Translations under genes and position numbers: made by a program | IMG/VR virus record: IMGVR_UViG_3300037264_005663 | Location: 1-54,940 of that record | From: a virus | Direction: 5' to 3' (one strand) | DNA: 54,940 nt | Part shown: one piece after another, positions 4,855-52,620 of the stretch | How the letters are laid out: every line of letters begins with the position of its first letter | Position numbering within the stretch: the first letter of the stretch is position 1 | The notes under the pieces: model-generated | Told to the model about the DNA's origin: nothing | Seen by the model: the letters and a program-made list of their open reading frames with translations, nothing else | Databases searched by the model: none

Positions 4855-4876
4855 GGGGCACAACACCGGAGTGTTG

Positions 4877-5514: not shown

Positions 5515-7137
5515 GTGCGGCGTATCGTACTGATTTCTGGTCCTGTCGGATCGGGGAAGACGACTCTGGCCGACAGACTAACGTCGAGCTTCCGTCTGCA
5601 GATGGTCAAGAGTCGCGATGTGATTCGGTCACTCGAAGATATGCACAGCAAGGGCCGCGGGCTATTCCAGGCGGCCGGCGACCGGTTGGACCAGCATACT
5701 TCTGGCGGATGGCTCGCGAGCTGGATCGCACAGCAGGACGAGGCTGTATCGGACTCCGCGGAGTTCGTAATCGATGCTGTGCGCACGAGTCCGCAGATCG
5801 AGGGCATCCGCGAGAGGTTCGGGTCGCGCGTCGTACACGTTCACCTCACTGCATCAGACGGCGCCCTAAAGCAGCGCTATGGTTCACGTCACAACCGCGA
5901 CGTGGACGAGATGTCTTCGTACGAAAAGGTCAAGGCCAATGCCACAGAGCGCAACATCGGCAATTTGGCGGTGATCGCCGATCTGGTGATCAACACGGAG
6001 CGCTCCACGCCTGAGGACGTCTTCATTCGTGTGGCTGCGGCACTCGGATATTTCGGGCGAGGGACCGACCGTCTGGTGGATGTACTGGTCGGAGGACAAT
6101 ACGGCAGCGAGGGTAAGGGGCATATCACGTCGTACATCTCCGGAGAATACGGAGTGCTCGTGCGCGTTGGTGGCCCCAATGCCGGCCACAGCGTCTACCT
6201 CGAGGATTCCAGCAAATACGCACATCACCACCTCCCGTCAGGGACGCTGCATTCCAGTGCGCGACTTGTACTGGGGCCAGGCGCCACACTCTACGTGCCG
6301 AAGCTGTTGCGCGAGATCGCCACATGTAAGGTTGGAACTTCGCGTCTCTCTATCGACCCGCAGGCCATGATCATAGAGGATGGGGATCGGAAGGCTGAAG
6401 ACCGCACGCTGAAGAAGAGCATCGCCTCGACCGCGCAGGGCGTAGGATTCGCCACCGCGCGCAAGGTGCTCCGCGGTGCATTCCCCAGCCGAGTCCCTGT
6501 TCGTCTCGCGAGGGACATCCCCGAACTGCGCCCGTTCTTGTGTGAGACTCGTCGCGTGTTGGACGACGCGTTCCGCACCGGGACACGTGTCCTCCTCGAG
6601 GGGACCCAGGGGACGGGGCTCAGCATCCATCACGGCAGTTATCCGCACGTGACATCCCGCGATACTACAGTAAGCGGGTGCCTAGCGGACGCCGGTATTC
6701 CGCCCAGCCGCGTGCGCAGGATCATGATGGTCTGTCGTTCGTACCCAATCCGCGTGCAGGATTCCGTAACCGGGCAGACGTCGGGTCCGATGAGCCAGGA
6801 TCTGTCGTACACCGAACTCAGCCGGCGCAGTGGTATTCCATTGAGCGAATTGAAGGCAACGGAAACCACCACCACCACCAAGCGGCAGCGCCGGCTGTCG
6901 GAATTCGATTGGAGACTGTTTAGGGTGGCAACTTCTCTGAACGGACCGACAGATATTGCACTCACCTTCGCTGATTATGTGAGGGTCGAGAATCGCCAGG
7001 CACAACGTTTCGAACAGCTGACGAGCGAGACCATCCGGTTCATCGAGGAACTCGAGCGGGTGTCTGGGGCTCCGGTTTCGCTCATTTCGACGCGTTTCGG
7101 GCCGCGCGCTATTATAGATCGCCGCAGGTGGTCGTAA
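5515..7137 (+). CDS. purZ: P-loop kinase fused to PurZ-type 2-aminodeoxyadenylosuccinate synthetase
   Basis: Residues 1-180 are a P-loop nucleotide kinase-like domain (Walker A GPVGSGKT at 9-16). Residues 186-540 are an adenylosuccinate synthetase: GGQYGSEGKG (193-202), GGPNAGHS (219-226), LEGTQGTGLSIHHG (361-374), and TTTTTKRQRR plus FDW (451-466). PurA has a catalytic Asp in G-Q-W-G-D-E-G-K-G; here that position is Ser198, the replacement known in phage PurZ enzymes that join dGMP and aspartate towards 2-amino-dAMP. PurZ is usually single-domain, so the kinase fusion is unusual; it might phosphorylate dGMP, the product dZMP or another dNMP. The GTG start at 5515 follows AGGGGGG. The PurZ assignment is strong; the kinase substrate is unknown. 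Confidence 0.87.
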   Translation: MRRIVLISGPVGSGKTTLADRLTSSFRLQMVKSRDVIRSLEDMHSKGRGLFQAAGDRLDQHTSGGWLASWIAQQDEAVSDSAEFVIDAVRTSPQIEGIRERFGSRVVHVHLTASDGALKQRYGSRHNRDVDEMSSYEKVKANATERNIGNLAVIADLVINTERSTPEDVFIRVAAALGYFGRGTDRLVDVLVGGQYGSEGKGHITSYISGEYGVLVRVGGPNAGHSVYLEDSSKYAHHHLPSGTLHSSARLVLGPGATLYVPKLLREIATCKVGTSRLSIDPQAMIIEDGDRKAEDRTLKKSIASTAQGVGFATARKVLRGAFPSRVPVRLARDIPELRPFLCETRRVLDDAFRTGTRVLLEGTQGTGLSIHHGSYPHVTSRDTTVSGCLADAGIPPSRVRRIMMVCRSYPIRVQDSVTGQTSGPMSQDLSYTELSRRSGIPLSELKATETTTTTKRQRRLSEFDWRLFRVATSLNGPTDIALTFADYVRVENRQAQRFEQLTSETIRFIEELERVSGAPVSLISTRFGPRAIIDRRRWS

Positions 7138-39294: not shown

Positions 39295-39792
39295 ATGCAA
39301 ATCTATCGAGCTGCGACTAACTCGGTGTTGGTGACTGTCGCCAGCAACCTCCCATTCTTCGCACTGTTTGGTCCAACAGATCCGAACAAAGTCGTCCGTG
39401 TTCGCAGAATATTCGCCTCCCTTCCGACGCTGGGATCGGCAACCCACAAACAGATAAGTCTCGTCAAGTACAAAAACCAACTGACTGGAGGAACGCCCAC
39501 TAACCTCGGGAAGATATCACTAGACTCGTCGGCGCCGGCGTCGGATGCTGCAATCTGCGCCGTATATGCCACCGCGCCCACTGTGGGCAACATGGTTGGC
39601 GTGATCGGTGCGCGCCGCGTAAACATGCAGGACACGTCGCCTGCTGGCACCGAGACGTCAGACTTCGCGGATTTCGATTTCCGCGACGGTCCAATTACCC
39701 TACACAACGCTAACGAGGGTGTCTGTCTACAGATGGACGCTGTCACTGGGTCGTTCTCGATTTCGGTCGAAGCAGAGTGGAGTGAGGAATGA
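39295..39792 (+). CDS. Putative virion or fibre protein
   Basis: A 165-residue beta-rich protein (NSVLVTVASNLPFFALFGPT, ITLHNANEGVCLQMDAVTGS) with a strong ribosome site (TAGGAGG). The last gene of the tail module; its stop overlaps the glycosyltransferase start. Resembles small decoration or fibre-tip proteins only in composition. Confidence 0.55.
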   Translation: MQIYRAATNSVLVTVASNLPFFALFGPTDPNKVVRVRRIFASLPTLGSATHKQISLVKYKNQLTGGTPTNLGKISLDSSAPASDAAICAVYATAPTVGNMVGVIGARRVNMQDTSPAGTETSDFADFDFRDGPITLHNANEGVCLQMDAVTGSFSISVEAEWSEE

Positions 39793-40577
39793 GCATCCAG
39801 ATCGTCAGCGTTGCCAACCGTATCCCGGACAGGAATCGTGAGCCGTATTATCGATTCCAGACTTTCGTGGACAGTCTCGCGCGGTTTGGTGTGAAGCCTG
39901 GCACGCACCCTGGAGACCTACTCATCCTCGGCATGAACGAGTGGTGGGGTGGTCTTATGACGAAGCCACGCCGGCTACGTGATTGGCTCCGGGGCGACGG
40001 GTGCAAGTGCGACACCCTCATCGTGTGCGACGCGTTCGATATCGTATTCTCGGCGCCACCGGCTGAGATCGAGGCGGCGTACGAGCGGTGGGAAGGGAGG
40101 CCCGGGGCGTCGGGCCCCTCCGTCGTGTTCAACGCGGAGAGGGGCCTCTTCCCGCGTCCGGAACTCGCACACGCCTTCTCCGACAACGGGCTGCCGTGGC
40201 GATATCTGAACTCGGGGTTCTTTATTGGCCCGCCGGCGCAGATCCTCGCGCTGCTCGAGGCGATGTGGCTCGACGATATCGCCGACGATTACCGGAGCCC
40301 CGATCAGCTTCACGGCGGCGGCGGGCGGATGATTCATCCGAACGACCAGGGCTGGTATCAGCTCATGTACGCCGCCCAGGTGGTCCCCATGGATTTGGAC
40401 TCCCGCGGTGAGATCGCGCAATGTCTGAGCGCTTGCACACTCGATGAATTCGACCTCTCAGGTCCGCGGATTCGTAACCTCGTGACCGGCACCGAGCCTC
40501 TGGTGTGGCACTTCAACGGCGGGAGCAAGAACGATCTCATGCCCGTGTTCCTGCAGAAGTGGGGGATTCCTACATGA
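39789..40577 (+). CDS. Glycosyltransferase, PLOD/GT25-like
   Basis: A 262-residue protein with a DxD-type motif in LIVCDAFDIVFSAPPAEIEA, and LNSGFFIGPPAQILALLEAM, like procollagen-type glycosyltransferases. These add hexose to hydroxylysine in eukaryotes; viral and bacterial relatives modify diverse targets. It opens the sugar/methyl island and overlaps the tail gene (ATGA), so it is expressed with virion proteins. Confidence 0.75.
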   Translation: MSIQIVSVANRIPDRNREPYYRFQTFVDSLARFGVKPGTHPGDLLILGMNEWWGGLMTKPRRLRDWLRGDGCKCDTLIVCDAFDIVFSAPPAEIEAAYERWEGRPGASGPSVVFNAERGLFPRPELAHAFSDNGLPWRYLNSGFFIGPPAQILALLEAMWLDDIADDYRSPDQLHGGGGRMIHPNDQGWYQLMYAAQVVPMDLDSRGEIAQCLSACTLDEFDLSGPRIRNLVTGTEPLVWHFNGGSKNDLMPVFLQKWGIPT

Positions 40578-41107
40578 ACCTCCTCGAACTCGCGGGGCTG
40601 ATCGGGGTTGAAGGATTCCTGCATTGCAACGAACTCGAGAAGCTCGTCGAACTCGCGGTAAACCGAGATGTGCTGGAGATCGGGTCCTACCGCGGACTCT
40701 CGGCGTGGGGCATGGGGATGGTCGCCCGCAGCCTCACTTGTGTTGACACCTTCCGCGCCGCGAGCGACGGCCAACGACAGACTGGTAGCCACACGACTCT
40801 CGATGCGTTCAATCTCGCGGTGCGCCGATATAACCACGTGAAGGTATATTCAGTGTCGAGCGAGCGCGCCATAGATCTCGTCGTGGATGACTTCGATATG
40901 GTGTTCGTCGATGCCATGCACACCTATCCCGAAGTCATCGGCGACGTTCAACGTTGGCGTCCACACGTGCGGCCCGGCGGGCTTCTAGTGTTCCACGATT
41001 ACGGGCATGATGCCTTCCCGGGTGTGAAAGAGGCGGTGGACGAGTGCTTCGGTCCGGCGCCGGATGGAACAGTCGAGGTAACGTTGCGCTGGATCGAGAT
41101 CAATTAG
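40574..41107 (+). CDS. SAM-dependent methyltransferase 1 (Methyltransf_24-like)
   Basis: A 177-residue protein with the SAM site VLEIGSYRGLSAWGMGMVA, an acidic motif DFDMVFVDAMHTYPEV and GGLLVFHDYGH, as in class I O-methyltransferases. ATGA overlap with the glycosyltransferase gene. Probable substrate: a sugar or glycan made in the same cluster. Confidence 0.75.
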   Translation: MNLLELAGLIGVEGFLHCNELEKLVELAVNRDVLEIGSYRGLSAWGMGMVARSLTCVDTFRAASDGQRQTGSHTTLDAFNLAVRRYNHVKVYSVSSERAIDLVVDDFDMVFVDAMHTYPEVIGDVQRWRPHVRPGGLLVFHDYGHDAFPGVKEAVDECFGPAPDGTVEVTLRWIEIN

Positions 41108-41658
41108 TGTCGATTACTCACTGGTGGGACCGTTCGGTACATGGGATCCCCGTCGTCCGTGAAATCTTCATCGAAACAGGATGCAAAGCGGGAGACACAT
41201 TGTGGCAGGCGAAAGACAAATTCCCGACATGCCATTCGATCGAGATCAATGGGGCCGCGTATGCCGCTTGTCTGGATCGTTTCCGCGATTTCCCGCATGT
41301 CCAGATCCATCTCGGCGACAGTCGCGACGTGCTCCCGCGCATTATTGATCCCACGCGTCCCACCACATTCTATCTCGATGCGCACTGCGAGGGGGCGCCC
41401 TCGACAGTCCCAGAGGCCGACACCGAGTGTCCGCTCCTCGATGAGCTCGATATCATCGTGTATGCGCGATGGACCACACGCCCCACAATTATCATCGACG
41501 ACATTCATATGTTCCACCCTGGATATTGGCGAGATCCCCATAGTAATTGGAGATTGTTTACCCCAGCAGATTGGCCTCGGTTTGAGCAGATCTGTGAACT
41601 CCTGGCGGATTATCGTTTCCACGAAGACACCGAGAATCGGGTTGGTCTGTGGGTCTGA
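41107..41658 (+). CDS. SAM-dependent methyltransferase 2
   Basis: A 183-residue protein (FIETGCKAGDTLWQAKDKFP, CHSIEINGAAYAACLDRF, RPTTFYLDAHCEG, PTIIIDDIHMF), a Rossmann methyltransferase similar to small sugar methyltransferases. GTG start shares a base with the previous stop. Lacks a clear target domain. Confidence 0.65.
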   Translation: MSITHWWDRSVHGIPVVREIFIETGCKAGDTLWQAKDKFPTCHSIEINGAAYAACLDRFRDFPHVQIHLGDSRDVLPRIIDPTRPTTFYLDAHCEGAPSTVPEADTECPLLDELDIIVYARWTTRPTIIIDDIHMFHPGYWRDPHSNWRLFTPADWPRFEQICELLADYRFHEDTENRVGLWV

Positions 41659-42317
41659 TCCGCTCCCGGTGGCCGGGGCTCCTCGTGAACGAAGACAGAG
41701 TGATTGCAGATGAAGGAGCGCTACAGGAGTGTTACGTTGACGATGTATATGGCATTCGTGGATTGCGGGACGTCGAATTCGCACTGGATGTGGGTGCGCA
41801 CATAGGTGGAGCTTCGGCGCTGCTCCATGAATGTTTTCCGAGTGCCCGCATCGTTGCGGTGGAGTGTTGCCCCGAAAACATGCCGTGCCTCGAAGAGAAT
41901 GTCGGGCACTTCGCTGATGTTCTTCATGGTGCTGTGACTTATGAAACTGGCAATATCGTGCTGGCGAGCACGGTCTACGAGGGATGCCGAACGTCTGGGA
42001 GTAGTGTGGTCGTCACGCGCGAACAGTGGGAAACGAAGCGGGTTCCGTGGACTTGGGATCCTGATGATTACCATCTGGACGATCGTCCATTGCTCAGGTG
42101 GACCATCGAGGACATCGTAAAACTAGTGGGCGGACAACAAATCGATCTCTTGAAGCTCGATTGCGAGGGAAGCGAGATCAGCATCCTCATGGGGTGTTCT
42201 ATCTTCGATCGGATTCGAACGATCGTCGGCGAATACCACGACGCCGCGGCATTTACCGCCGTGGCGCCGCCGGGTACCGAGATGTGGGACGGACATTTGT
42301 TTCGAGTGTCGCGATGA
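41649..42317 (+). CDS. FkbM-family methyltransferase
   Basis: A 222-residue protein with FALDVGAHIGGASALLHECF, RIVAVECCPENMPCLEENVG and IDLLKLDCEGSEISILMG, the FkbM signature. FkbM enzymes O-methylate sugars and polyketides. GTG start within the previous gene. Confidence 0.8.
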   Translation: MGLIRSRWPGLLVNEDRVIADEGALQECYVDDVYGIRGLRDVEFALDVGAHIGGASALLHECFPSARIVAVECCPENMPCLEENVGHFADVLHGAVTYETGNIVLASTVYEGCRTSGSSVVVTREQWETKRVPWTWDPDDYHLDDRPLLRWTIEDIVKLVGGQQIDLLKLDCEGSEISILMGCSIFDRIRTIVGEYHDAAAFTAVAPPGTEMWDGHLFRVSR

Positions 42318-42436
42318 TCTATCGGTGTCACCCCCATACCGGGCCATCAATCTGGGAGTTCCTGATCGTCCTCGCGGCATTGTTGGCTGTGGGGTCGCTC
42401 TTGGGTTGGCTGACTGGCAGGAAGATGTTCGGATGA
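42314..42436 (+). CDS. Small membrane protein in the glycan cluster
   Basis: A 40-residue protein with a transmembrane helix (IWEFLIVLAALLAVGSLLGW) and a short basic tail. ATGA overlaps on both sides. Could anchor the cluster's enzymes to the membrane, but this is a guess. Confidence 0.5.
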   Translation: MIYRCHPHTGPSIWEFLIVLAALLAVGSLLGWLTGRKMFG

Positions 42437-43929
42437 AGCCGGCGGTCTGCCTCATCACTCCACCGTCAACGTTCCTCCTCGACGAACGGGTTTTCGTGTC
42501 GTTGGGCATCCTGCGGGTGGCTGCGGTTCTCGAACGGGCCATGTTTCACGTGGAACATCTGGACCTATCGGGGATCGAGAATTACGAGGAAGCGGTGTCC
42601 GACTATGCCTCGCGCACTACAGCCACGGTTTTCGGGCTGACAGCCACGACGCCCCAGATGCCGGCGACCACCAAGATCCTGTCTCGACTGCGCCGGGGCC
42701 GTCCTGGCGTCCGGCTGGTATTGGGTGGCCCCCACGCTACTCTCGTCGCAGCCGCGCGCAGGAGAGAGGCCAAGGCGGGCACTCCGGGGCGGGCCACGGT
42801 CGCCTTCCAGAATATGTCTTCGTTGGTTGATGTGGTTGTCGCCGGCGACGGCGAGGGCGCCATATTCCGCGCTCTTGAGGATGAGCCACCGGCGTTCATT
42901 GATGCCGATGATCCGAAGTCTGATCTGTGGCTTACTGACGAATCTTATGAGACGTTGCCATTCCCGGCTCGGCACCTCGTGGACATGGACTCCTATCACT
43001 ATTCGGTCGAGGGAGAACGGGCAACCTCCATGATCGCGCAGTTGGGGTGCCCGTTCGAGTGCTCGTTTTGCGGCGGCCGGCTCTCCTCTATGTTGCGCAG
43101 AATCCGGACACGCAGCACTTGGTCGGTCGTCGCGGAAATTCGGCATCTCTTTGAAAGTTACGGTGTCCGCGGGATCATGATGTACGACGACGAGTTGAAC
43201 GTCAACAAACAATGCGTCCAACTCATGCGGGCCATCGCGGATCTGGGACGCGATCTAGGGATCGAGTTTAGGCTCCGCGGATTCATCAAGGCGGAACTGT
43301 TCACCGAGGAACAGGCCGAGGCCATGCATGCTGCGGGTTTCCGGTGGATCCTCGTGGGTTTCGAATCGGGATCGCCACGCGTGCTCACGAACATCAACAA
43401 GAAAGCCACACGCGAAGACAATTCGCGCTGCCTCGCGATTGCGCGCCGGCATGGGCTCAAGGTGAAGGCGCTCATGTCGATCGGTCATCCGGGGGAAAAC
43501 TTCGAAACAGTCCAACAGACGCGCGATTGGTTACTCGAGGAGAAGCCTGACGATTTCGACTGCACGGTGATTTCTTGCTATCCTGGGACTCCGTACTATG
43601 ATCACGCCATACAAACGTCTCCCGATGTCTGGACTTACACTGTGCCGCGCACCGGGGACAAACTGCACGCGGTGGACGTCGATTACAGTACCACCGCGGA
43701 CGCATACAAGGGAGTCCCAGGCGACTACCGCGCTTACGTTTTCACCGACTACTTGAGAAGCCAAGATCTAGTCGCCTTGCGTGATTCGCTCGAGTCCGAT
43801 GTGCGCAGGATTCTTGGGATCCCGTTCAACTCCGGCGCTCCTGGCGTGAGATATGAGGCCTCAATGGGACAATTTCCAGGTCATATTCTGCGTCACTCAA
43901 TAAACACTGGGGTGGCAGCGTGCGCGTAG
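42433..43929 (+). CDS. B12-binding-type radical SAM enzyme
   Basis: The 498-residue protein has an N-terminal cobalamin-binding-like Rossmann domain (VFGLTATTPQMPATTKIL, RLVLGGPHATL) and a radical SAM core with CPFECSFC (residues ~207-214, CxxxCxxC). Later come LVGFESGSPRVLTNINKKAT and SIGHPGENFE. Class B radical SAM enzymes methylate unactivated carbon or phosphorus atoms. Such an enzyme is rare in phages. Its neighbours suggest a modified sugar or glycan as substrate. Confidence 0.85.
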   Translation: MKPAVCLITPPSTFLLDERVFVSLGILRVAAVLERAMFHVEHLDLSGIENYEEAVSDYASRTTATVFGLTATTPQMPATTKILSRLRRGRPGVRLVLGGPHATLVAAARRREAKAGTPGRATVAFQNMSSLVDVVVAGDGEGAIFRALEDEPPAFIDADDPKSDLWLTDESYETLPFPARHLVDMDSYHYSVEGERATSMIAQLGCPFECSFCGGRLSSMLRRIRTRSTWSVVAEIRHLFESYGVRGIMMYDDELNVNKQCVQLMRAIADLGRDLGIEFRLRGFIKAELFTEEQAEAMHAAGFRWILVGFESGSPRVLTNINKKATREDNSRCLAIARRHGLKVKALMSIGHPGENFETVQQTRDWLLEEKPDDFDCTVISCYPGTPYYDHAIQTSPDVWTYTVPRTGDKLHAVDVDYSTTADAYKGVPGDYRAYVFTDYLRSQDLVALRDSLESDVRRILGIPFNSGAPGVRYEASMGQFPGHILRHSINTGVAACA

Positions 43930-44921
43930 CGTTCCTCCTGTCAAATCTCGGCGGCTCGCCTCTCACCATCGGGCTCGAGCGCGGCATGCGCCTCCTCGGT
44001 CATCAAGTTGTGGACTACACGCCGGATGGAAACTGGGACCTTTTGTTGGTGTTTAATCAATGCGCCCACGTTACGAACTACGCCTATCCTCCGCTCCCAC
44101 CGAAAAATCACGGCCGGCGCATTGCTTTCATTGATACCGCCGAGTACGGATGGACGAAACGAGTGAAGGAGCCAATCGGCACCTACTGGAATGCGTTCGC
44201 TGAGGGCAGCATGACACACGACACCAAGAATCCTGAACAGCAGACGCTGTTGCGCGATTGGCTCGATTGCCAGTCGTTCCCATACTTCGTGCGGGAATTC
44301 TGGAATGCGTGGGCGTTCCCGGCGGCGTACCATCCGATCGATTATCCGCTCTACCAGCCAAGCGCGCACCGGCGGGCGCCAAAACGTGATGAATATCTCA
44401 GGAGGACAACCCAAGTCGCGTGCCTGTGGGGACTGTCTAATCCGTGGAGGGTGAACCTCACAGCGGAGATGGAGGCGTCTCCAGTCGTTAAGGATGTTTA
44501 CGTCATCGAGCGTGATGGTCCGCGGCTCCCACAATTCGGACCGCGCGGATATTTCGAGCGCCTCGAGGCCGCTCGTTGTTCGGTGTCCTTTGACGGCTAC
44601 GGCTCCGGATCGTTTCGCATGACGGAGGTCCTCTGTAGGACTCTGCTCATGCAGGGCCCGCTCGCCATCAAAACCCACGCACCACTCATCCACGGTGACA
44701 CGTGTTGGGCCTACTGCGTATGGGTGGACGGCGAGCATTATGTCCGCAGCGACCTCGTCGAACAGATTCAGGCGGCGATGGCTGACCCAGAGAGGTGCTT
44801 CGAGATTCATCATCGCGGGTTCAATCATTGTATGGCGCATCTTACCGAGCGGGCGACCGCGGAGTATGTGCTCCGCGTGATTGACGCTCACGACTTGAAC
44901 CAAGTGACGAGGATCTATTAG
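43920..44921 (+). CDS. Glycosyltransferase-like protein (CgeB-type)
   Basis: A 333-residue protein with MRVAFLLSNLGGSPLTIGLE at the N-terminus and a C-terminal half with CSVSFDGYGSGSFRMTEVLC and PLAIKTHAPLIHGDTCWAYC, where the nucleotide-sugar site lies in GT-B fold glycosyltransferases. Similar to CgeB/spore-coat-type proteins. GTG start in the previous gene. Confidence 0.65.
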   Translation: MRVAFLLSNLGGSPLTIGLERGMRLLGHQVVDYTPDGNWDLLLVFNQCAHVTNYAYPPLPPKNHGRRIAFIDTAEYGWTKRVKEPIGTYWNAFAEGSMTHDTKNPEQQTLLRDWLDCQSFPYFVREFWNAWAFPAAYHPIDYPLYQPSAHRRAPKRDEYLRRTTQVACLWGLSNPWRVNLTAEMEASPVVKDVYVIERDGPRLPQFGPRGYFERLEAARCSVSFDGYGSGSFRMTEVLCRTLLMQGPLAIKTHAPLIHGDTCWAYCVWVDGEHYVRSDLVEQIQAAMADPERCFEIHHRGFNHCMAHLTERATAEYVLRVIDAHDLNQVTRIY

Positions 44922-44934
44922 TGGGGGAACATCA

Positions 44935-45480
44935 ATGACACTCCGATCTGCGCTTCCTTCCGATACTCGCTATCGCAGCGAGACTGACGTGTACCGGCAT
45001 GTGGTGCTGCCGTGGATTCCGCAGGAAGGAAACGGGCTGGACATTGGGCATGGGGGAGATCCGATAGTTCCATGGGCGGCTACCGTGGACAAGGGCGATG
45101 TCCACATGTCGAATTGCGGCGAACACCCGACGAATTTCTCCGGCGACGCATCGCATCTCCCCTGGTTCACGGATGGAGCGCTGGACTGGATCTACAGCTC
45201 CCACTGCCTCGAGGATTTCGAGGACACGGAATCCGTACTGCGTGAGTGGTTGCGTGTACTACGGGTGGGAGGACGCCTTGTCCTTCTTCTGCCTGACCAG
45301 CGACGCTACGTCGCGCACTGCATCGCTGACGGCACAGAGCCCAACGGCGCCCATAAACATGGAGATTTTGGGCTCACATATATGGAAGCCATCGCTGCTC
45401 GAATCGGCGGTTTGCGCGAGGTCTTTCGTTGGGACCCAGGCGAGGGATACAACTTCGCCGTGGCTTACGAGAAAATCTGA
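44935..45480 (+). CDS. Class I methyltransferase (Methyltransf_11-like)
   Basis: A 181-residue protein with GNGLDIGHGGDPIVPWAATV, DGALDWIYSSHCLEDFEDTE and LRVLRVGGRLVLLLPDQRRY. This is the methyltransferase-11 pattern seen in glycan and rhamnan synthesis. ATG 44935 follows GGGGG. Fourth methyltransferase of the island. Confidence 0.75.
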   Translation: MTLRSALPSDTRYRSETDVYRHVVLPWIPQEGNGLDIGHGGDPIVPWAATVDKGDVHMSNCGEHPTNFSGDASHLPWFTDGALDWIYSSHCLEDFEDTESVLREWLRVLRVGGRLVLLLPDQRRYVAHCIADGTEPNGAHKHGDFGLTYMEAIAARIGGLREVFRWDPGEGYNFAVAYEKI

Positions 45481-45620
45481 CATCGCCCCCGGGTGCAGCG
45501 AGGGTGGGAGTGTCGGCGTCGTGGTTGCGTCGGCACGGAGGGCCGTCCGTCCGGTTCCGCGGCTCCGGAACGTGTGGCCGGCGAGGTAGCGACTCGGGGG
45601 CGCCACCAGGAGACGACGCG

Positions 45621-45851
45621 ATGCCGTGGCAAGTTGAAGGCGTGGCGGCGAAGTATGGCTGCTGGCGCCGCGCGTGTGCAGTCGCACTCACCAGGGCCAA
45701 GAAAGGCTGGTCATCTACGGTGCGCTGGGTCGGACACAAAAAACAATTTCCGAACAGCGATCCCATGAACCTCGATTTCGTCATGCACGCTGACGGCAGT
45801 AAGGATTACTCCATCGACCCGACGTGGAGCGGACACCCGACACCACCGTGA
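45621..45851 (+). CDS. Small unknown protein
   Basis: A 76-residue protein from ATG 45621, after CAGGAGACG. It is rich in Trp and Lys (MPWQVEGVAAKYGCWRRACA), with DYSIDPTWSGHP near the end. The preceding 140 bases hold several short GC-rich inverted repeats but no gene. Function unknown. Confidence 0.55.
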   Translation: MPWQVEGVAAKYGCWRRACAVALTRAKKGWSSTVRWVGHKKQFPNSDPMNLDFVMHADGSKDYSIDPTWSGHPTPP

Positions 45852-45882
45852 GATGTGAGCGGAATAGATGGAGGGTCTCCTG

Positions 45883-46227
45883 ATGGCGCCGGATTCGAGC
45901 CACGACCAAGTTACTCTAATCCATCTGACGGAGGGTATTGGTCATCTCAAGGGATCGGTCGGTGCATTGTCGCTGCAAGTCGCTGCGATTCAGACTGAAC
46001 AGATGAACATCCGTCGAGAGATCGGCCAGGGGCTGACCGATGTGCGCCGCGAGATGAAGGCGGATATCCAGGCGATAGCGAATGGTGCGAAGTCGTCGAG
46101 CGGAGATAACGAAGACGAGATCCGCAAGGTGCGAGAGAAGATCGTGTTTGCGTCTGGATGGGTAGCGGCGGCTGGTGTCATTGTCGGATTCCTGGTCCCA
46201 TGGGCCCTCAAAAAGTGGGGTGGATGA
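45883..46227 (+). CDS. Holin-like coiled-coil membrane protein
   Basis: A 114-residue protein with a coiled coil (GLTDVRREMKADIQAIANGA) and one C-terminal transmembrane helix (GWVAAAGVIVGFLVPWALKK), typical of small phage holin/hemolysin-XhlA-like proteins. ATG 45883 follows GGAGGG; an earlier ATG at 45868 is less likely. Next to a second membrane protein, it is a good lysis candidate. Confidence 0.6.
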   Translation: MAPDSSHDQVTLIHLTEGIGHLKGSVGALSLQVAAIQTEQMNIRREIGQGLTDVRREMKADIQAIANGAKSSSGDNEDEIRKVREKIVFASGWVAAAGVIVGFLVPWALKKWGG

Positions 46228-46228
46228 C

Positions 46229-46537
46229 GTGGATCTCTCCGGCTTTATGCTCTTCCTCTCTGTTGTGGGCACACTCTCTTACGGCACGGTCGGGACGGTG
46301 CTGGTCTTGCCGGCAGAATCCAGTACAATGCTCAGACTCATTGGTGGCATGCTCCTCGTGACGTCTGCTCTCTTCTTTCTGTCAGCCTTCTATTATTTCG
46401 CCAGTGCGGGGGGCGACTCCGGCGCGGCATCGGCGATGCTCGATTCGCGCGTCGTGTTCTTCGTGATCGCGGATATCCTCGCAGTCTCCGCGATGGTCAA
46501 ACTACTCCGAGAATCGAAAGGGAGACGGAAACAGTGA
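46229..46537 (+). CDS. Three-helix membrane protein, putative holin
   Basis: A 102-residue protein with three hydrophobic helices (FMLFLSVVGTLSYGTVGTVL, RLIGGMLLVTSALFFLSAFY, VVFFVIADILAVSAMVKLLR) and a basic C-terminus (RESKGRRKQ), as in class I holins. GTG 46229 suits the GGGG site. No endolysin gene is adjacent. Confidence 0.6.
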   Translation: MDLSGFMLFLSVVGTLSYGTVGTVLVLPAESSTMLRLIGGMLLVTSALFFLSAFYYFASAGGDSGAASAMLDSRVVFFVIADILAVSAMVKLLRESKGRRKQ

Positions 46538-46950
46538 AAATCACTCCGGCTATCGTTCACAAGAACTGGGGCCACGAGGAAATCGTGGTAAACGAGCGCA
46601 AAGCCGGATACTGCGGCAAAATCATGCGCGCGCGTCCTGGCCGGGCCTCGCGCATTGAGCGCCATCGCACCAAGGACGAGACATTCTACGTTCTCGATGG
46701 ATGTGTACGACTCGAGTTGTTCGAGAATTACGACGTTCCCGCGGTTCCAACCGATGCCATCGCGGGATCGTTGCCGGGACAGGGAGAATTCCACGGGAGG
46801 ATCGATCTTCAATCCGGCCAAGGATTCCGCATTCCTCCTGGTGTCTGGCACAGATTCGGCGCCATGGACCCAGGGACGCGGTTCGTCGAATTCTCGACCT
46901 TCCACGACGACGCCGACACCGAGCGCTGGGAGCCATCTAATGCGTGCTGA
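46534..46950 (+). CDS. Cupin protein, sugar isomerase-like
   Basis: A 138-residue cupin: NWGHEEIVVNERKAGYCGKI, then RHRTKDETFYVLDGCVRLEL and FRIPPGVWHRFGAMDPGTRF carry the two cupin motifs. Similar to D-lyxose/mannose-6-phosphate isomerase-like proteins, supporting a sugar pathway role. GTG 46534 overlaps the holin stop. The first 27-bp direct repeat overlaps its stop codon. Confidence 0.7.
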   Translation: MKITPAIVHKNWGHEEIVVNERKAGYCGKIMRARPGRASRIERHRTKDETFYVLDGCVRLELFENYDVPAVPTDAIAGSLPGQGEFHGRIDLQSGQGFRIPPGVWHRFGAMDPGTRFVEFSTFHDDADTERWEPSNAC

Positions 46951-47004
46951 CAGATCCAGTACGCATCTTTGCGTTCTCTGACAGATCCAGTACGCATCTT
47001 TGCG
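46947..47004 (+). repeat. Two 27-bp direct repeats, 4 bp apart
   Basis: An identical 27-bp unit beginning CTGACAGATCCAG and ending CATCTTTGCG occurs at 46947-46973 and 46978-47004 (period 31 bp). The first copy includes the cupin gene's stop codon. It lies just upstream of the first sigma-54-type promoter and could be a binding site or a recent tandem duplication. Confidence 0.75.
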
Positions 47005-47055: not shown

Positions 47056-47158
47056 TCGCACCCTGCAATCGCCTACCCTTGCACGCTGCAATCCACATTA
47101 TCAGAATCCGCAAAAGATCACCACAGACGGCAAAAGATGATACTGGCATGAGGTATGC
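47056..47158 (+). promoter_or_regulatory. Sigma-54-type promoter P1 with tandem palindromic activator sites
   Basis: Sites TCGCACCCTGCAA (47056-47068, one mismatch to TTGCA-N3-TGCAA) and TTGCACGCTGCAA (47079-47091, perfect) have centres 23 bp apart. The -24/-12 element TGGCAT...ATGC has GG at 47145-47146, N10 and GC at 47157-47158. The proximal palindrome is 60 bp upstream of the GG. Gene 47199 follows with AAGGAG. Confidence 0.7.
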
Positions 47159-47198
47159 GATGTTTGGTTGTGTCTCGGGGAAACAAGGAGACCCTTCG

Positions 47199-47495
47199 AT
47201 GAGCACCAAGCAGAGCAAGACGACGACGATGGGGCAGTGCCCGGGTTGCTCCTCCACCCGCGGTCGTGAGACGGATGTCGTGGGTGTGTACGAATGCGCC
47301 AAATGCGGCGGCGTCGTCGGACAGTGCTACCGCGGCGATGCCTCGCGTTTCGTCGCCATCCATCAACCGATGCAGGCCGAGTGTGAAGACGGAGACGCGC
47401 GCTACTTCGACCTCATGCTCCTCGGATCTCAGGGAATCGAGCGCGTGCACGGATGGATGGACCGCAACACCAAACGGGTCGTGCAGTTCGGTTGA
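47199..47495 (+). CDS. Zinc-ribbon protein under P1
   Basis: A 98-residue protein with GQCPGCSSTRGRE and YECAKCGGVVGQC, a paired CxxC zinc ribbon. It resembles small transcription-factor-like zinc proteins. First gene after promoter P1, with a ~30-base leader. Function unknown. Confidence 0.65.
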   Translation: MSTKQSKTTTMGQCPGCSSTRGRETDVVGVYECAKCGGVVGQCYRGDASRFVAIHQPMQAECEDGDARYFDLMLLGSQGIERVHGWMDRNTKRVVQFG

Positions 47496-47568
47496 CAACT
47501 AACACCCGGGGCGCGCTACGGGGAGGCGCGCTCCGGGACGAGATGCGGCAGTTCAAGGCACGGTGCTA

Positions 47569-47589
47569 CGCGCGGGAGCGCGGGGGGTG
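47569..47589 (+). ncRNA. GGGA-loop hairpin with Shine-Dalgarno, copy 1
   Basis: Stem CGCGC (47569-47573) and GCGCG (47578-47582) around loop GGGA, followed by GGGGGTG (47583-47589) and a start codon 7 bases on. Same design as copies at 47812, 48186 and 48525. Confidence 0.55.
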
Positions 47590-47596
47590 GTGCGTG

Positions 47597-47809
47597 GTGA
47601 CTTCCTATGAATTGATCTGTGGAGCGGTGGAGGAGCGCGGGGGCGTGAGCATCTTTCATGAGCATGGTACGTACCATATCCGCTCGCGGCGCTGGCGCGA
47701 GGAGTTACCGGTGATACAATCGTGGTGGAGATGTTCACCTACTCTGCGTGAGGCTAGGCGTCATGCGGCGGAGATTCGGCGCGAGATGCGGCAGTTCGAG
47801 GCGCGGTAG
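47597..47809 (+). CDS. Small unknown protein behind hairpin copy 1
   Basis: A ~70-residue protein with GTG start at 47597 (or 47594). It contains GGVSIFHEHGTYHIRSRRW and a C-terminal Arg/Glu-rich helix. Its last codons (EMRQFEAR) form part of the region repeated upstream of the next gene, whose copy starts near 47541. Confidence 0.45.
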   Translation: MTSYELICGAVEERGGVSIFHEHGTYHIRSRRWREELPVIQSWWRCSPTLREARRHAAEIRREMRQFEAR

Positions 47810-47811
47810 GA

Positions 47812-47832
47812 CGCGCGGGAGCGCGGGGGGTG
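47812..47832 (+). ncRNA. GGGA-loop hairpin with Shine-Dalgarno, copy 2
   Basis: Stem CGCGC (47812-47816), loop GGGA, GCGCG (47821-47825), then GGGGGTG (47826-47832) and ATG 6 bases later. The upstream 35 bases also match copy 1 (GAGATGCGGCAGTTC...). Confidence 0.55.
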
Positions 47833-47838
47833 CGAGCG

Positions 47839-48042
47839 ATGACTAGGTTCTACGTTTCCCTTTGGCATGGTGAGGGCGGCAGCATCGCCACGGTTATTGA
47901 CCGTCAGGACGATGCTTGTCTGGGCTACTACAGCACGATCCGCGACGGGGCACGCTTCCGTGAGCTGGCCGACATTCAGGCTACCGCCCTCAATCGTGCT
48001 GGTGATTGTGGCACATTGGCCCCTAGGGTTTGGAGTAGCTAG
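47839..48042 (+). CDS. Small unknown protein behind hairpin copy 2
   Basis: A 67-residue protein (MTRFYVSLWHGEGGSIATVI, a mixed alpha/beta sequence). ATG 47839 sits 6 bases after GGGGGTG. No family recognised. Confidence 0.55.
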   Translation: MTRFYVSLWHGEGGSIATVIDRQDDACLGYYSTIRDGARFRELADIQATALNRAGDCGTLAPRVWSS

Positions 48043-48145
48043 CACCCGCCCCGTGGCGCTCGTGTCCCACCGACTAGGTGGCACTCCCAGCCCTGGCCCT
48101 CGCAGGCGCGCGGGGGCTGTGAGCGAGCGGCGGGATCCGGCCGGG

Positions 48146-48206
48146 GCGACCAGCGGCGCGGGGACTGGTCGCAACAACTTGAACAGCTGCGGGAGCAGCG
48201 GGGGTG
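48146..48206 (+). ncRNA. Two-hairpin RNA element, copy 3
   Basis: Hairpin A: GCGACCAG (48146-48153) and CTGGTCGC (48165-48172) around an 11-base loop CGGCGCGGGGA. After a linker with ACTTGAAC, hairpin B: GCTGC, loop GGGA, GCAGC (48186-48199), then GGGGGTG. Copy 4 at 48487 has the same loops and compensatory stem changes. The preceding gap also has a CCACC/GGTGG hairpin near 48070. Confidence 0.7.
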
Positions 48207-48210
48207 AGCG

Positions 48211-48474
48211 GTGCGATACGTCAAGGGAACGATGCTAACTGCTTCAGACCAGCGGCACGTACTAGCCGCCTACGTCCACCGATACACGCTGGAGCATGTC
48301 CCAGCATGGGCTCGCGCTCCACGTCCGAATGGATCGGCCTACCCCGTTCAGTTCGCCTCGGATCGGGAGTGGCTTGAGCATACGGTTTTCGCGGTCAAGT
48401 CCAACGGTAGTCTTGACGCTAGGGTTCGGGCTTGTCGCTCCACCCCGACATGGTGCGCATCGGTTACGGCCTAG
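48211..48474 (+). CDS. Small unknown protein behind RNA element copy 3
   Basis: An 87-residue protein from GTG 48211, 4 bases after GGGGGTG. Sequence features: MLTASDQRHVLAAYVHRYTL, and a Ser/Cys-rich C-terminus. No function assigned. Confidence 0.55.
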   Translation: MRYVKGTMLTASDQRHVLAAYVHRYTLEHVPAWARAPRPNGSAYPVQFASDREWLEHTVFAVKSNGSLDARVRACRSTPTWCASVTA

Positions 48475-48486
48475 CGGCCAGCCGGG

Positions 48487-48545
48487 GCGACCGGCGGCGC
48501 GGGGACCGGTCGCATACTTGAACGGGCCCGGGAGGGCCGGGGGTG
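48487..48545 (+). ncRNA. Two-hairpin RNA element, copy 4
   Basis: Hairpin A: GCGACCGG (48487-48494) with CCGGTCGC (48506-48513), the same 11-base loop as copy 3. Hairpin B: GGCCC, loop GGGA, GGGCC (48525-48538), then GGGGGTG and ATG 48553. Relative to copy 3, one pair in stem A changes A-U to G-C, and in stem B three of five pairs change on both sides. Confidence 0.7.
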
Positions 48546-48552
48546 CAAAGCC

Positions 48553-48804
48553 ATGACCGACATGATTCCGCCGATCGTTCACATGAACGGGACTTCACGC
48601 GAAGCGCTCGAGAAGCAGCTCCTCGATTTACACAAGTCGTTGCGCGCAACCAGTGAATGCCTGAGTCATGCGTGGCCGAACGGACGCGATTATTATCCCG
48701 AGCCGGGCCGCATGGATCGGGCGCTGCCCTGGTGGGTCGAACTCCAGGCGACGATCGGGAAGGCGATCCAAGACATCGAGGCGTGTCACGCGGAAATGGA
48801 GTAG
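48553..48804 (+). CDS. Conserved phage protein (IPPIVHMNGTS / RDYYP family)
   Basis: An 83-residue protein with IPPIVHMNGTSREALEKQLL and NGRDYYPEPGRM, a pattern I recognise from many phage small proteins of unknown function. It follows RNA element copy 4. Confidence 0.75.
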   Translation: MTDMIPPIVHMNGTSREALEKQLLDLHKSLRATSECLSHAWPNGRDYYPEPGRMDRALPWWVELQATIGKAIQDIEACHAEME

Positions 48805-48808
48805 AACG

Positions 48809-49393
48809 ATGCGAACGATCAAGACGAAATTCGCCGGCGAGTGCCGCAAATGTGGGGCGGATCTGGCCGTGGGCGTCGAGGTGGTGTACGAGCGACGGAT
48901 GGGAATCTTCTGCCCTGCCTGCGCCCCGACCGATCCCGAAGAGATCCGCTCCTATCGGCAGGAGGCGGCGGACCGCAAAGCCGATCGGCTCGACGGCTGG
49001 GCGGAGAAGCGCGAGGAGCGAGCCTCTGCCACCCTCAACAGCAATCCGGAAGTGCGGCGCGACTGGGCGTTCATCACACAGCCGGGGCGGATTCCGCTCC
49101 GCGAGAGGATGAATCGTGCGGATGACCGGGCGTGCGAGAGTCTCGGTAAAGCGCGCGAGATGCGCGGCCGTGCGGACAGAATCCGTAAGGTGCGTGTGGC
49201 CGGCGATGCGGAGCGCGCGCGCGAGGCCCATCGCGAGGAAGTGCGCGCGTGGATCGCCAAGGGGCAGCGTGTCTTCTGTCATCACTGGGGAGAGGGAACT
49301 GTCCAGCGTGTGAACCGCAAGACGGGAACCGTGCTCTGGGACAGGATCGCCAAGGCATACCCCGAACCGCTCGAGTGGCTGCAACGAGTCTAA
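48809..49393 (+). CDS. DUF3560-like protein with zinc-ribbon start
   Basis: A 194-residue protein: a zinc-ribbon-like N-terminus (ECRKCGADL, FCPACAP), a long charged helix (KREERASATLNSNPEVRRDW) and a region with GRIPLRERMNRADDRACESL, as in DUF3560 phage/plasmid proteins. It ends in a compact domain (GEGTVQRVNRKTGTVLWDRI). Function unknown. Confidence 0.6.
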   Translation: MRTIKTKFAGECRKCGADLAVGVEVVYERRMGIFCPACAPTDPEEIRSYRQEAADRKADRLDGWAEKREERASATLNSNPEVRRDWAFITQPGRIPLRERMNRADDRACESLGKAREMRGRADRIRKVRVAGDAERAREAHREEVRAWIAKGQRVFCHHWGEGTVQRVNRKTGTVLWDRIAKAYPEPLEWLQRV

Positions 49394-49402
49394 CCCTGGA
49401 TG

Positions 49403-49534
49403 TTGCAGATTGCGATGGTGTGCCGTTGCACCGTGCAATTTTCTCCTGTGGTCAGCCCGTGTGGTGCTCTCCGTGGGCTCTCCTGGGCGTTTCGCGTTGG
49501 CACACCAGTTGCGATGTTTCGTTGGTGTCCGGGG
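49403..49534 (+). promoter_or_regulatory. Sigma-54-type promoter P2 with tandem palindromic sites
   Basis: TTGCAGATTGCGA (49403-49415, one mismatch) and TTGCACCGTGCAA (49426-49438, perfect), centres 23 bp apart. TGGCAC-N5-TTGC with GG at 49499-49500 and GC at 49511-49512, a textbook -24/-12 match. Proximal site to GG: 67 bp. TTGGTGTCCGGGG (49522-49534) follows at the start-site region, inside a perfect 9-bp hairpin GTTTCGTTG/CAACGAAAC (49516-49543). Confidence 0.8.
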
Positions 49535-49563
49535 CAACGAAACGACGAACGCGGGAGACGACG

Positions 49564-50006: not shown

Positions 50007-50036
50007 TTGACGTTGGGGGACCAGTGGGGGTATAAT
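50007..50036 (+). promoter_or_regulatory. Sigma-70-like promoter, copy C of conserved phage promoter
   Basis: TTGACG (50007-50012) and TATAAT (50031-50036), 18-base spacer containing CCAGTGGGG, preceded by TATC. This is nearly the same as copy A at 4825, which drives the purZ unit. It gives a second, sigma-70-type entry to the genes after 50079. Confidence 0.75.
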
Positions 50037-51320: not shown

Positions 51321-51430
51321 TTGCACGCTGCAAGGTGGCGCGATTGCAGAGTGTAGTGCAGCGGTGTGTCGCACAGACGGAGGACCCTCCGAGAGTCAAC
51401 GTTGGCACATTGGTATGGCAAGAACCTTGC
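51321..51430 (+). promoter_or_regulatory. Sigma-54-type promoter P3 with tandem palindromic sites
   Basis: TTGCACGCTGCAA (51321-51333, perfect) and TTGCAGAGTGTAG (51344-51356, two mismatches), 23 bp apart. TGGCAA-N5-TTGC with GG at 51417-51418 and GC at 51429-51430. Proximal centre to GG is 67 bp. TTGGTGTATGGG follows 9 bases after the GC. A second TGGCAC at ~51402 lacks a correctly spaced GC. Confidence 0.75.
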
Positions 51431-52455: not shown

Positions 52456-52587
52456 TTGCGGCTTGCAAGGTACTGCCATTGCGTGTTGCACGATATCGCA
52501 CGGACGGCCACGGGGATGCCGCTTCCGTGGCCACGGAAGGCGTTATTCACTGGCACGGCGCGTGCAATACGTAATTGGTGTCCGGGG
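52456..52587 (+). promoter_or_regulatory. Sigma-54-type promoter P4 with tandem palindromic sites
   Basis: TTGCGGCTTGCAA (52456-52468, one mismatch) and TTGCGTGTTGCAC (52479-52491, two mismatches), 23 bp apart. TGGCAC-N5-GTGC with GG at 52552-52553 and GC at 52564-52565. Proximal centre to GG is 67 bp. TTGGTGTCCGGGG (52575-52587) is identical to P2 and at the same 11-base offset. The unit leads to the helicase gene. Confidence 0.75.
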
Positions 52588-52620
52588 CGAGTCGAGACCC
52601 TAAACGCGGGAGACGAGACG

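Follow-up and report, generated by a model that had tools for sequence, protein, structure and literature searches.

What does a short hairpin set directly against the Shine–Dalgarno (SD) sequence do for the gene that follows it, and why does it stay paired when its stem changes sequence? The question is raised by a run of small genes in IMG/VR record IMGVR_UViG_3300037264_005663, the whole of which (54,940 bases, GC ∼60%) was analysed and is referred to here as the window. The source is an uncultured phage, and the record encodes a phage terminase, portal and tape measure. The nearest sequences found for the terminase are ∼25% identical to it. Phage records searched at the nucleotide and protein levels gave no match or distant matches only, and the hairpin region itself has no nucleotide match among the 50,697 phage records searched. 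Elsewhere in the record, positions 5515–7137 encode a P-loop kinase-like domain fused to a PurZ-type 2-aminoadenylosuccinate synthetase, a predicted fusion that suggests 2-aminoadenine DNA. Positions 39789–46950 hold a run of carbohydrate and small-molecule genes that includes a PLOD-type glycosyltransferase, a protein with a radical-SAM-like CxxxCxxC motif, a methyltransferase and a cupin.

Hairpins at four consecutive gene starts

The gene run opens on the plus strand with a weakly zinc-ribbon-like gene (47199–47495) that has no hairpin. A sigma-54-type (−24/−12) promoter, TGGCATGAGGTATGC, lies on the same strand at 47144–47158, ∼40 bases before this gene. It appears to mark the start of the operon, and a polycistronic message would probably begin near 47160. 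Just ahead of the operon, a 27-bp perfect direct repeat (46947–47004, spacing 31) overlaps a terminator-like hairpin. The second to fifth genes of the run, all on the plus strand, bear the hairpins: small gene 1 (47597–47809, 70 aa, GTG start at 47597, no family match), small gene 2 (47839–48042, 67 aa, ATG start at 47839), small gene 3 (48211–48474, 87 aa, GTG start at 48211) and small gene 4 (48553–48804, 83 aa, ATG start at 48553). The last of these has distant homologues in L010 and L141 and is a real gene. The bodies of the four genes have no recognisable similarity to each other. The next gene on the plus strand (48809–49393, 194 aa) again has no hairpin, and homologues of it occur in 17 viral contigs.

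The sequence, position and repetition of the hairpins can be read directly from the DNA, as can the compensatory changes described below. Each of the four starts is preceded by a perfect 5-bp stem with a GGGA loop, and the SD-like stretch GGGGGTG follows with zero gap. The original prediction had placed these elements 4–7 bases before the four start codons, and every coordinate and base in it is correct. Copy 1 (CGCGC-GGGA-GCGCG) occupies 47569–47582, with GGGGGTG at 47583–47589. Copy 2, of identical sequence, begins 2 nt past the stop codon of small gene 1 and occupies 47812–47825, with GGGGGTG at 47826–47832. Copy 3 (GCTGC-GGGA-GCAGC) lies at 48186–48199 and its GGGGGTG at 48200–48206, and copy 4 (GGCCC-GGGA-GGGCC) lies at 48525–48538 and its GGGGGTG at 48539–48545. 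All are on the plus strand, and GGGGGTG is separated from the start codon by 7, 6, 4 and 7 nt in copies 1–4, respectively. The core conserved across the four copies is CGGGAG-N4-GGGGGTG, such that loop and SD are constant and the differences are concentrated in the stem pairs. The GGGA loop, closed by a C-G pair, is a GNRA-type tetraloop, and GGGGGUG can pair with the anti-SD CACCUCC of the 16S 3′ end, one G-U pair included. Copies 3 and 4 also have an 8-bp inverted repeat upstream (plus strand, 48146–48172 and 48487–48513, respectively). The two repeats have the identical 11-base loop, CGGCGCGGGGA, and differ by one A-T to G-C pair change, in agreement with what had been claimed for them.

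Other ways of reading these repeats were considered. No T-run or T-tract site of the kind that marks an intrinsic terminator was found after the four hairpins. A conserved C-terminal coding sequence (xRExRG in one frame) was rejected, the frames being interrupted or lacking starts in copies 2–4. A further candidate hairpin copy at 50012 was discarded because the position falls within a sigma-70 promoter; the near-consensus sigma-70 promoter TTGACG-18-TATAAT lies at 50007–50036.

The promoter ahead of the operon is one of four strong sigma-54-type promoters (TGGCA-N7-TGC) in the whole window, all on the plus strand and standing before small-gene operons (47056–47158, 49403–49512, 51321–51430 and 52463–52565, palindromes included). 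Each is accompanied by two TTGCA-N3-TGCAA-like palindromes that stand in register with a spacing of 23 bp; the nearer of the two lies 65 or 72 nt upstream. The summed scores of the palindrome pairs are 17–19 of 20, and the maximum at random positions was 14 except where the sampled stretch overlapped the same sites. The promoter set looks enhancer-dependent and its palindromes enhancer-like, as judged from sequence. No sigma-54 activator domain (PF00158) was found in the record, and a scan of other phages for the sigma-54/palindrome arrangement gave none with the 23-bp spacing. The leaders after the promoters (49510–49560, 52570–52620 and 47160–47195) have GGTGTCCGGGG-like stretches in common, one of which lies within a perfect 8-bp hairpin (TTTCGTTG/CAACGAAA).

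Longer repeats, covariation and predicted folding

The copies lie within longer repeats. A 56-nt unit around copy 1 (47534–47589, plus strand) recurs with 88% identity around copy 2 (47777–47832, plus strand), where it takes in the last codons of small gene 1, and copies 3 and 4 have a ∼69-nt repeat in common. The distinct stem states therefore number three, not four, and because the copies sit in these repeats they would have arisen by duplication of gene junctions. At 48101–48126 the copy-2 junction recurs in part and in degenerate form (85% over 26 nt), perhaps as a decayed fifth gene start.

Both strands of the 54,940 bases were scanned mechanically for perfect 5-bp stems that share the loop and the next 6 nt and differ in the stem. 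The only family with at least two distinct stems was that of the GGGA/GGGGGTG hairpins, while dinucleotide shuffles of the whole window gave 0.025 two-stem families and zero three-stem families. Across the three stem states, four of the five pairs change on both sides with all cells paired, and a control in which the partners were slid by 1–3 columns gave no both-side pair changes. Between copies 3 and 4 there are 11 substitutions, eight of which make up four compensated pairs; one of these pairs is the A-T to G-C change in the 8-bp hairpin. When 11 substitutions are placed at random, four compensated pairs arise with a frequency of ∼2×10−6. The changes are clustered, with three adjacent bases altered in each arm. 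As an empirical null, viral sequences were scanned with the same anchors (CGGGAG-N4-GGGGGTG-N3-8-RTG). Among the matches listed, which represent at least 119 unrelated loci, the full stem was present in two, that is, pairing was at chance level. The stem covariation of the SD-adjacent hairpin is thus real, with compensatory changes found over three stem states only, and the claim that the stems differ yet remain complementary (CGCGC/GCGCG twice, GCTGC/GCAGC and GGCCC/GGGCC) holds.

Partition function calculations give the SD-adjacent stem a probability of 0.64–1.0 in copies 1, 3 and 4 (0.64–0.98 by context in copy 1, 0.76–1.0 in copy 3 and 0.86–0.98 in copy 4), and it is the favoured fold of these copies in short context. 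The corresponding value for copy 2 is 0–0.84 by context, with other folds adopted in some contexts. Most predictions also pair part of the G-run, so that the calculations do not clearly leave the SD exposed. In the contexts tried, the 8-bp hairpin upstream mostly loses to competing folds; it forms in one fold of copy 4. Minimum free energies are not below those of shuffles (z near 0), which is ordinary for this GC content. The original prediction that covariation points to a conserved RNA structure, perhaps a translation regulator, is supported in part: the SD-adjacent stem does covary, and its place at gene starts fits an RNA element linked to translation. The calculations show neither an unusually stable fold nor a dominant 8-bp hairpin.

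Searches for the motif and a parallel RNA module

A search of the window against Rfam 15 gave no covariance-model match at the gathering score and none at E up to 1, and an exact-pattern scan of IMG/VR for the 8-bp hairpin found none. No homologue of the hairpin motif was present in the phage records and viral contigs searched, so that the phage RNA motif suggested earlier has no other carrier among them. None of the 17 viral contigs with homologues of the 194-aa gene carries the GGGA/GGGGGTG motif. For the genes at 47199 and 48553, viral and genome contigs yielded few homologues or none, and the motif was absent from them. More broadly, SD-abutting hairpins are barely enriched among 269 viral sequences (210 versus 164 in a parallel-strand control) and are not a general phage property.

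Homology to the 194-aa gene downstream of the hairpin genes led to contig L005 (IMGVR_UViG_3300006641_002892), which contains an RNA module of its own. At 4869–7425 of L005 (9007–11563 of L190) there are six copies of a ∼90-nt module, one before each of six successive genes. The module spans the upstream stop codon to the next SD, its long stem pairs the stop codon (TAGTCC with GGATTA), and it ends in a small hairpin 0–4 nt before the SD. RNAalifold analysis of the modules yielded 25 consensus pairs, 11 of them changed on both sides, and the folding z-scores range from −2.5 to −5.9. The seven SD-adjacent stems, from the six modules and the leader of the first gene and each 0–4 nt before its SD, total 34 pairs compared with 17.7 in shuffles, and none of 500 shuffles was as high. 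Rfam gave no match on L005, and a covariance model of the module gave no convincing match in the other contigs searched and no detectable homology to the window motif.

Like the window, L005 has RNA before successive small genes, covarying stems and a last hairpin close to the SD. The L005 module differs from the window motif in its sequence, its length of ∼90 nt, its start at the upstream stop codon and its SD of AGGAG/GGGAG type. Because L005 has a covarying module before six genes, the start-hairpin architecture recurs: two phages with unrelated sequences both have a variable-stem hairpin tied to the SD of small genes that follow one another, and this supports a general start-associated RNA architecture. 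A bolder reading, which we consider unlikely, is that the window and L005 are independent examples of a recurrent class. Each phage lineage would then have a hairpin of its own, constant in loop and variable in stem, joined to the ribosome-binding sites of its small accessory genes; these genes would serve as plug-in cassettes under one shared trans-acting translational control.

Proposed function of the hairpins and rival readings

With a probability of about one half, we propose that the hairpin is a cis-acting gene-start RNA element that was duplicated along with gene junctions and owes its maintained pairing to a role in shaping the ribosome-binding site. At each of the four consecutive small genes, a 14-nt hairpin would abut the SD stretch GGGGGUG in a polycistronic message. 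Its stem probably sets the 5′ boundary of the ribosome-binding site and stacks on it, and probably prevents upstream GC-rich RNA from capturing the G-run; each cassette would thereby carry its own initiation site. The element would have spread by duplication together with gene junctions, its pairing retained as the stem sequence changed. The identical placement of the hairpin at four of four successive starts counts for such a start-linked element, whereas the genes at 47199 and 48809, which belong to the same operon and have no hairpin, count against it. Folding energies not below shuffles, the other folds of copy 2, the partly paired G-run, the three stem states only, the slight enrichment of SD-abutting hairpins in viral sequences and the lack of homologues in the phage records and viral contigs searched likewise count against the proposal. 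Further points in its favour are the uniqueness of the family in the record, the compensated pairs, the favoured stem of copies 1, 3 and 4, the rarity of full stems among the anchored viral loci, the L005 module and the missing T-tract. We infer folding in vivo, an effect on translation, the mode of action of the hairpin and any trans-acting factor, the function being read purely from position.

Alternatively, a protein that binds RNA might recognise the constant loop (GGGA or GGGGA) on a stem of any sequence, with the hairpins as its operators, in the style of CsrA/RsmA or a phage translational repressor; bound beside the SD, it would co-repress the four genes. Loop recognition usually shows itself in a loop that is constant on a stem that varies yet stays paired, and the four genes are consecutive. 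As in CsrA/RsmA targets, GGA lies in the hairpin loop, in all four copies, on a short stem of free sequence near the SD, and in copies 3 and 4 it is present in the loops of both hairpins, giving two sites ∼30 nt apart. However, typical CsrA targets have GGA in the SD and the window has no second GGA overlapping GGGGGUG. No csrA was found in the 54,940-base record, no candidate repressor was identified, and the L005 loops (GUAGA, GUUAG and GUAGGA) are mostly without GGA. We consider operators of this kind unlikely. Lambda boxB, a hairpin of ∼15 nt with a 5-bp stem and a GNRA-type loop, is part of the nut antitermination sites together with boxA; the window hairpin is alike in size, stem, loop type and phage-operon setting, but it abuts the SD instead.

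The repeats could also be remnants of tandem junction duplication whose stems are kept perfect by template-switch (quasi-palindrome) mutation and have no RNA function. Compensatory changes are documented to arise in the absence of selection through template switching in DNA replication (PMC8794818). Such a history would fit the placing of copies 1/2 and 3/4 within longer repeats, with coding sequence inside the first, as well as the degenerate fifth piece, the ordinary folding z-scores and the run of three altered bases on each arm that separates copy 3 from copy 4, a pattern that this route can yield. It does not sit well with hairpins that lie against the SD at all four starts and nowhere else in the record, with a loop and SD that are invariant next to dissimilar gene bodies, or with a like architecture of other sequence in L005, and we regard it as doubtful. 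It is very improbable that the hairpins serve to process or stabilise the mRNA between operon genes, as cleavage sites or as barriers to nucleases: they are intergenic within one gene run, and a GC stem with a GNRA cap is stable and able to hold up nucleases, but five pairs make a short stem for RNase III or for a barrier, the fixed SD distance is left unexplained and the operon 3′ end has no hairpin of the GGGA/GGGGGTG family.

Among known systems, the nearest to the proposed gene-start element, though only loosely similar, are the SAS/ESAS repeats of cluster K mycobacteriophages, in which a short repeat with an SD core lies 3–7 bp before the starts of non-structural genes in one orientation (PMC3203893). 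SAS is a fixed 13-bp sequence, GGGATAGGAGCCC, present in 11–19 copies, about half of which have an imperfect 17-bp inverted repeat just upstream, and according to the authors the departures within the ESAS inverted repeat do not generally support RNA pairing (PMC3203893). The window hairpins are similarly placed 4, 6, 7 and 7 nt before starts, all on the plus strand and before small non-structural genes. In contrast to SAS, their core is CGGGAG-N4-GGGGGTG, an unrelated sequence in which GGGATAGGAGCCC is not found with up to two mismatches. They differ from ESAS in having a perfect 8-bp inverted repeat of different sequence in two of four copies, in copy uniformity and in changes that do support RNA pairing. 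A mycobacterial host is unlikely for the window phage because of its sigma-54-type promoters. The window hairpins accordingly fall outside SAS/ESAS and represent a variant of the same general phenomenon.

SAS/ESAS are still without a tested function (PMC12699233). Phages have been known to carry repeats at gene starts since 2011, with no mechanism attached to them, and the maintained pairing seen here makes an RNA-level role testable. Such a role would reveal how small genes can be added to phages with initiation sites that come ready-made and may be co-regulated.
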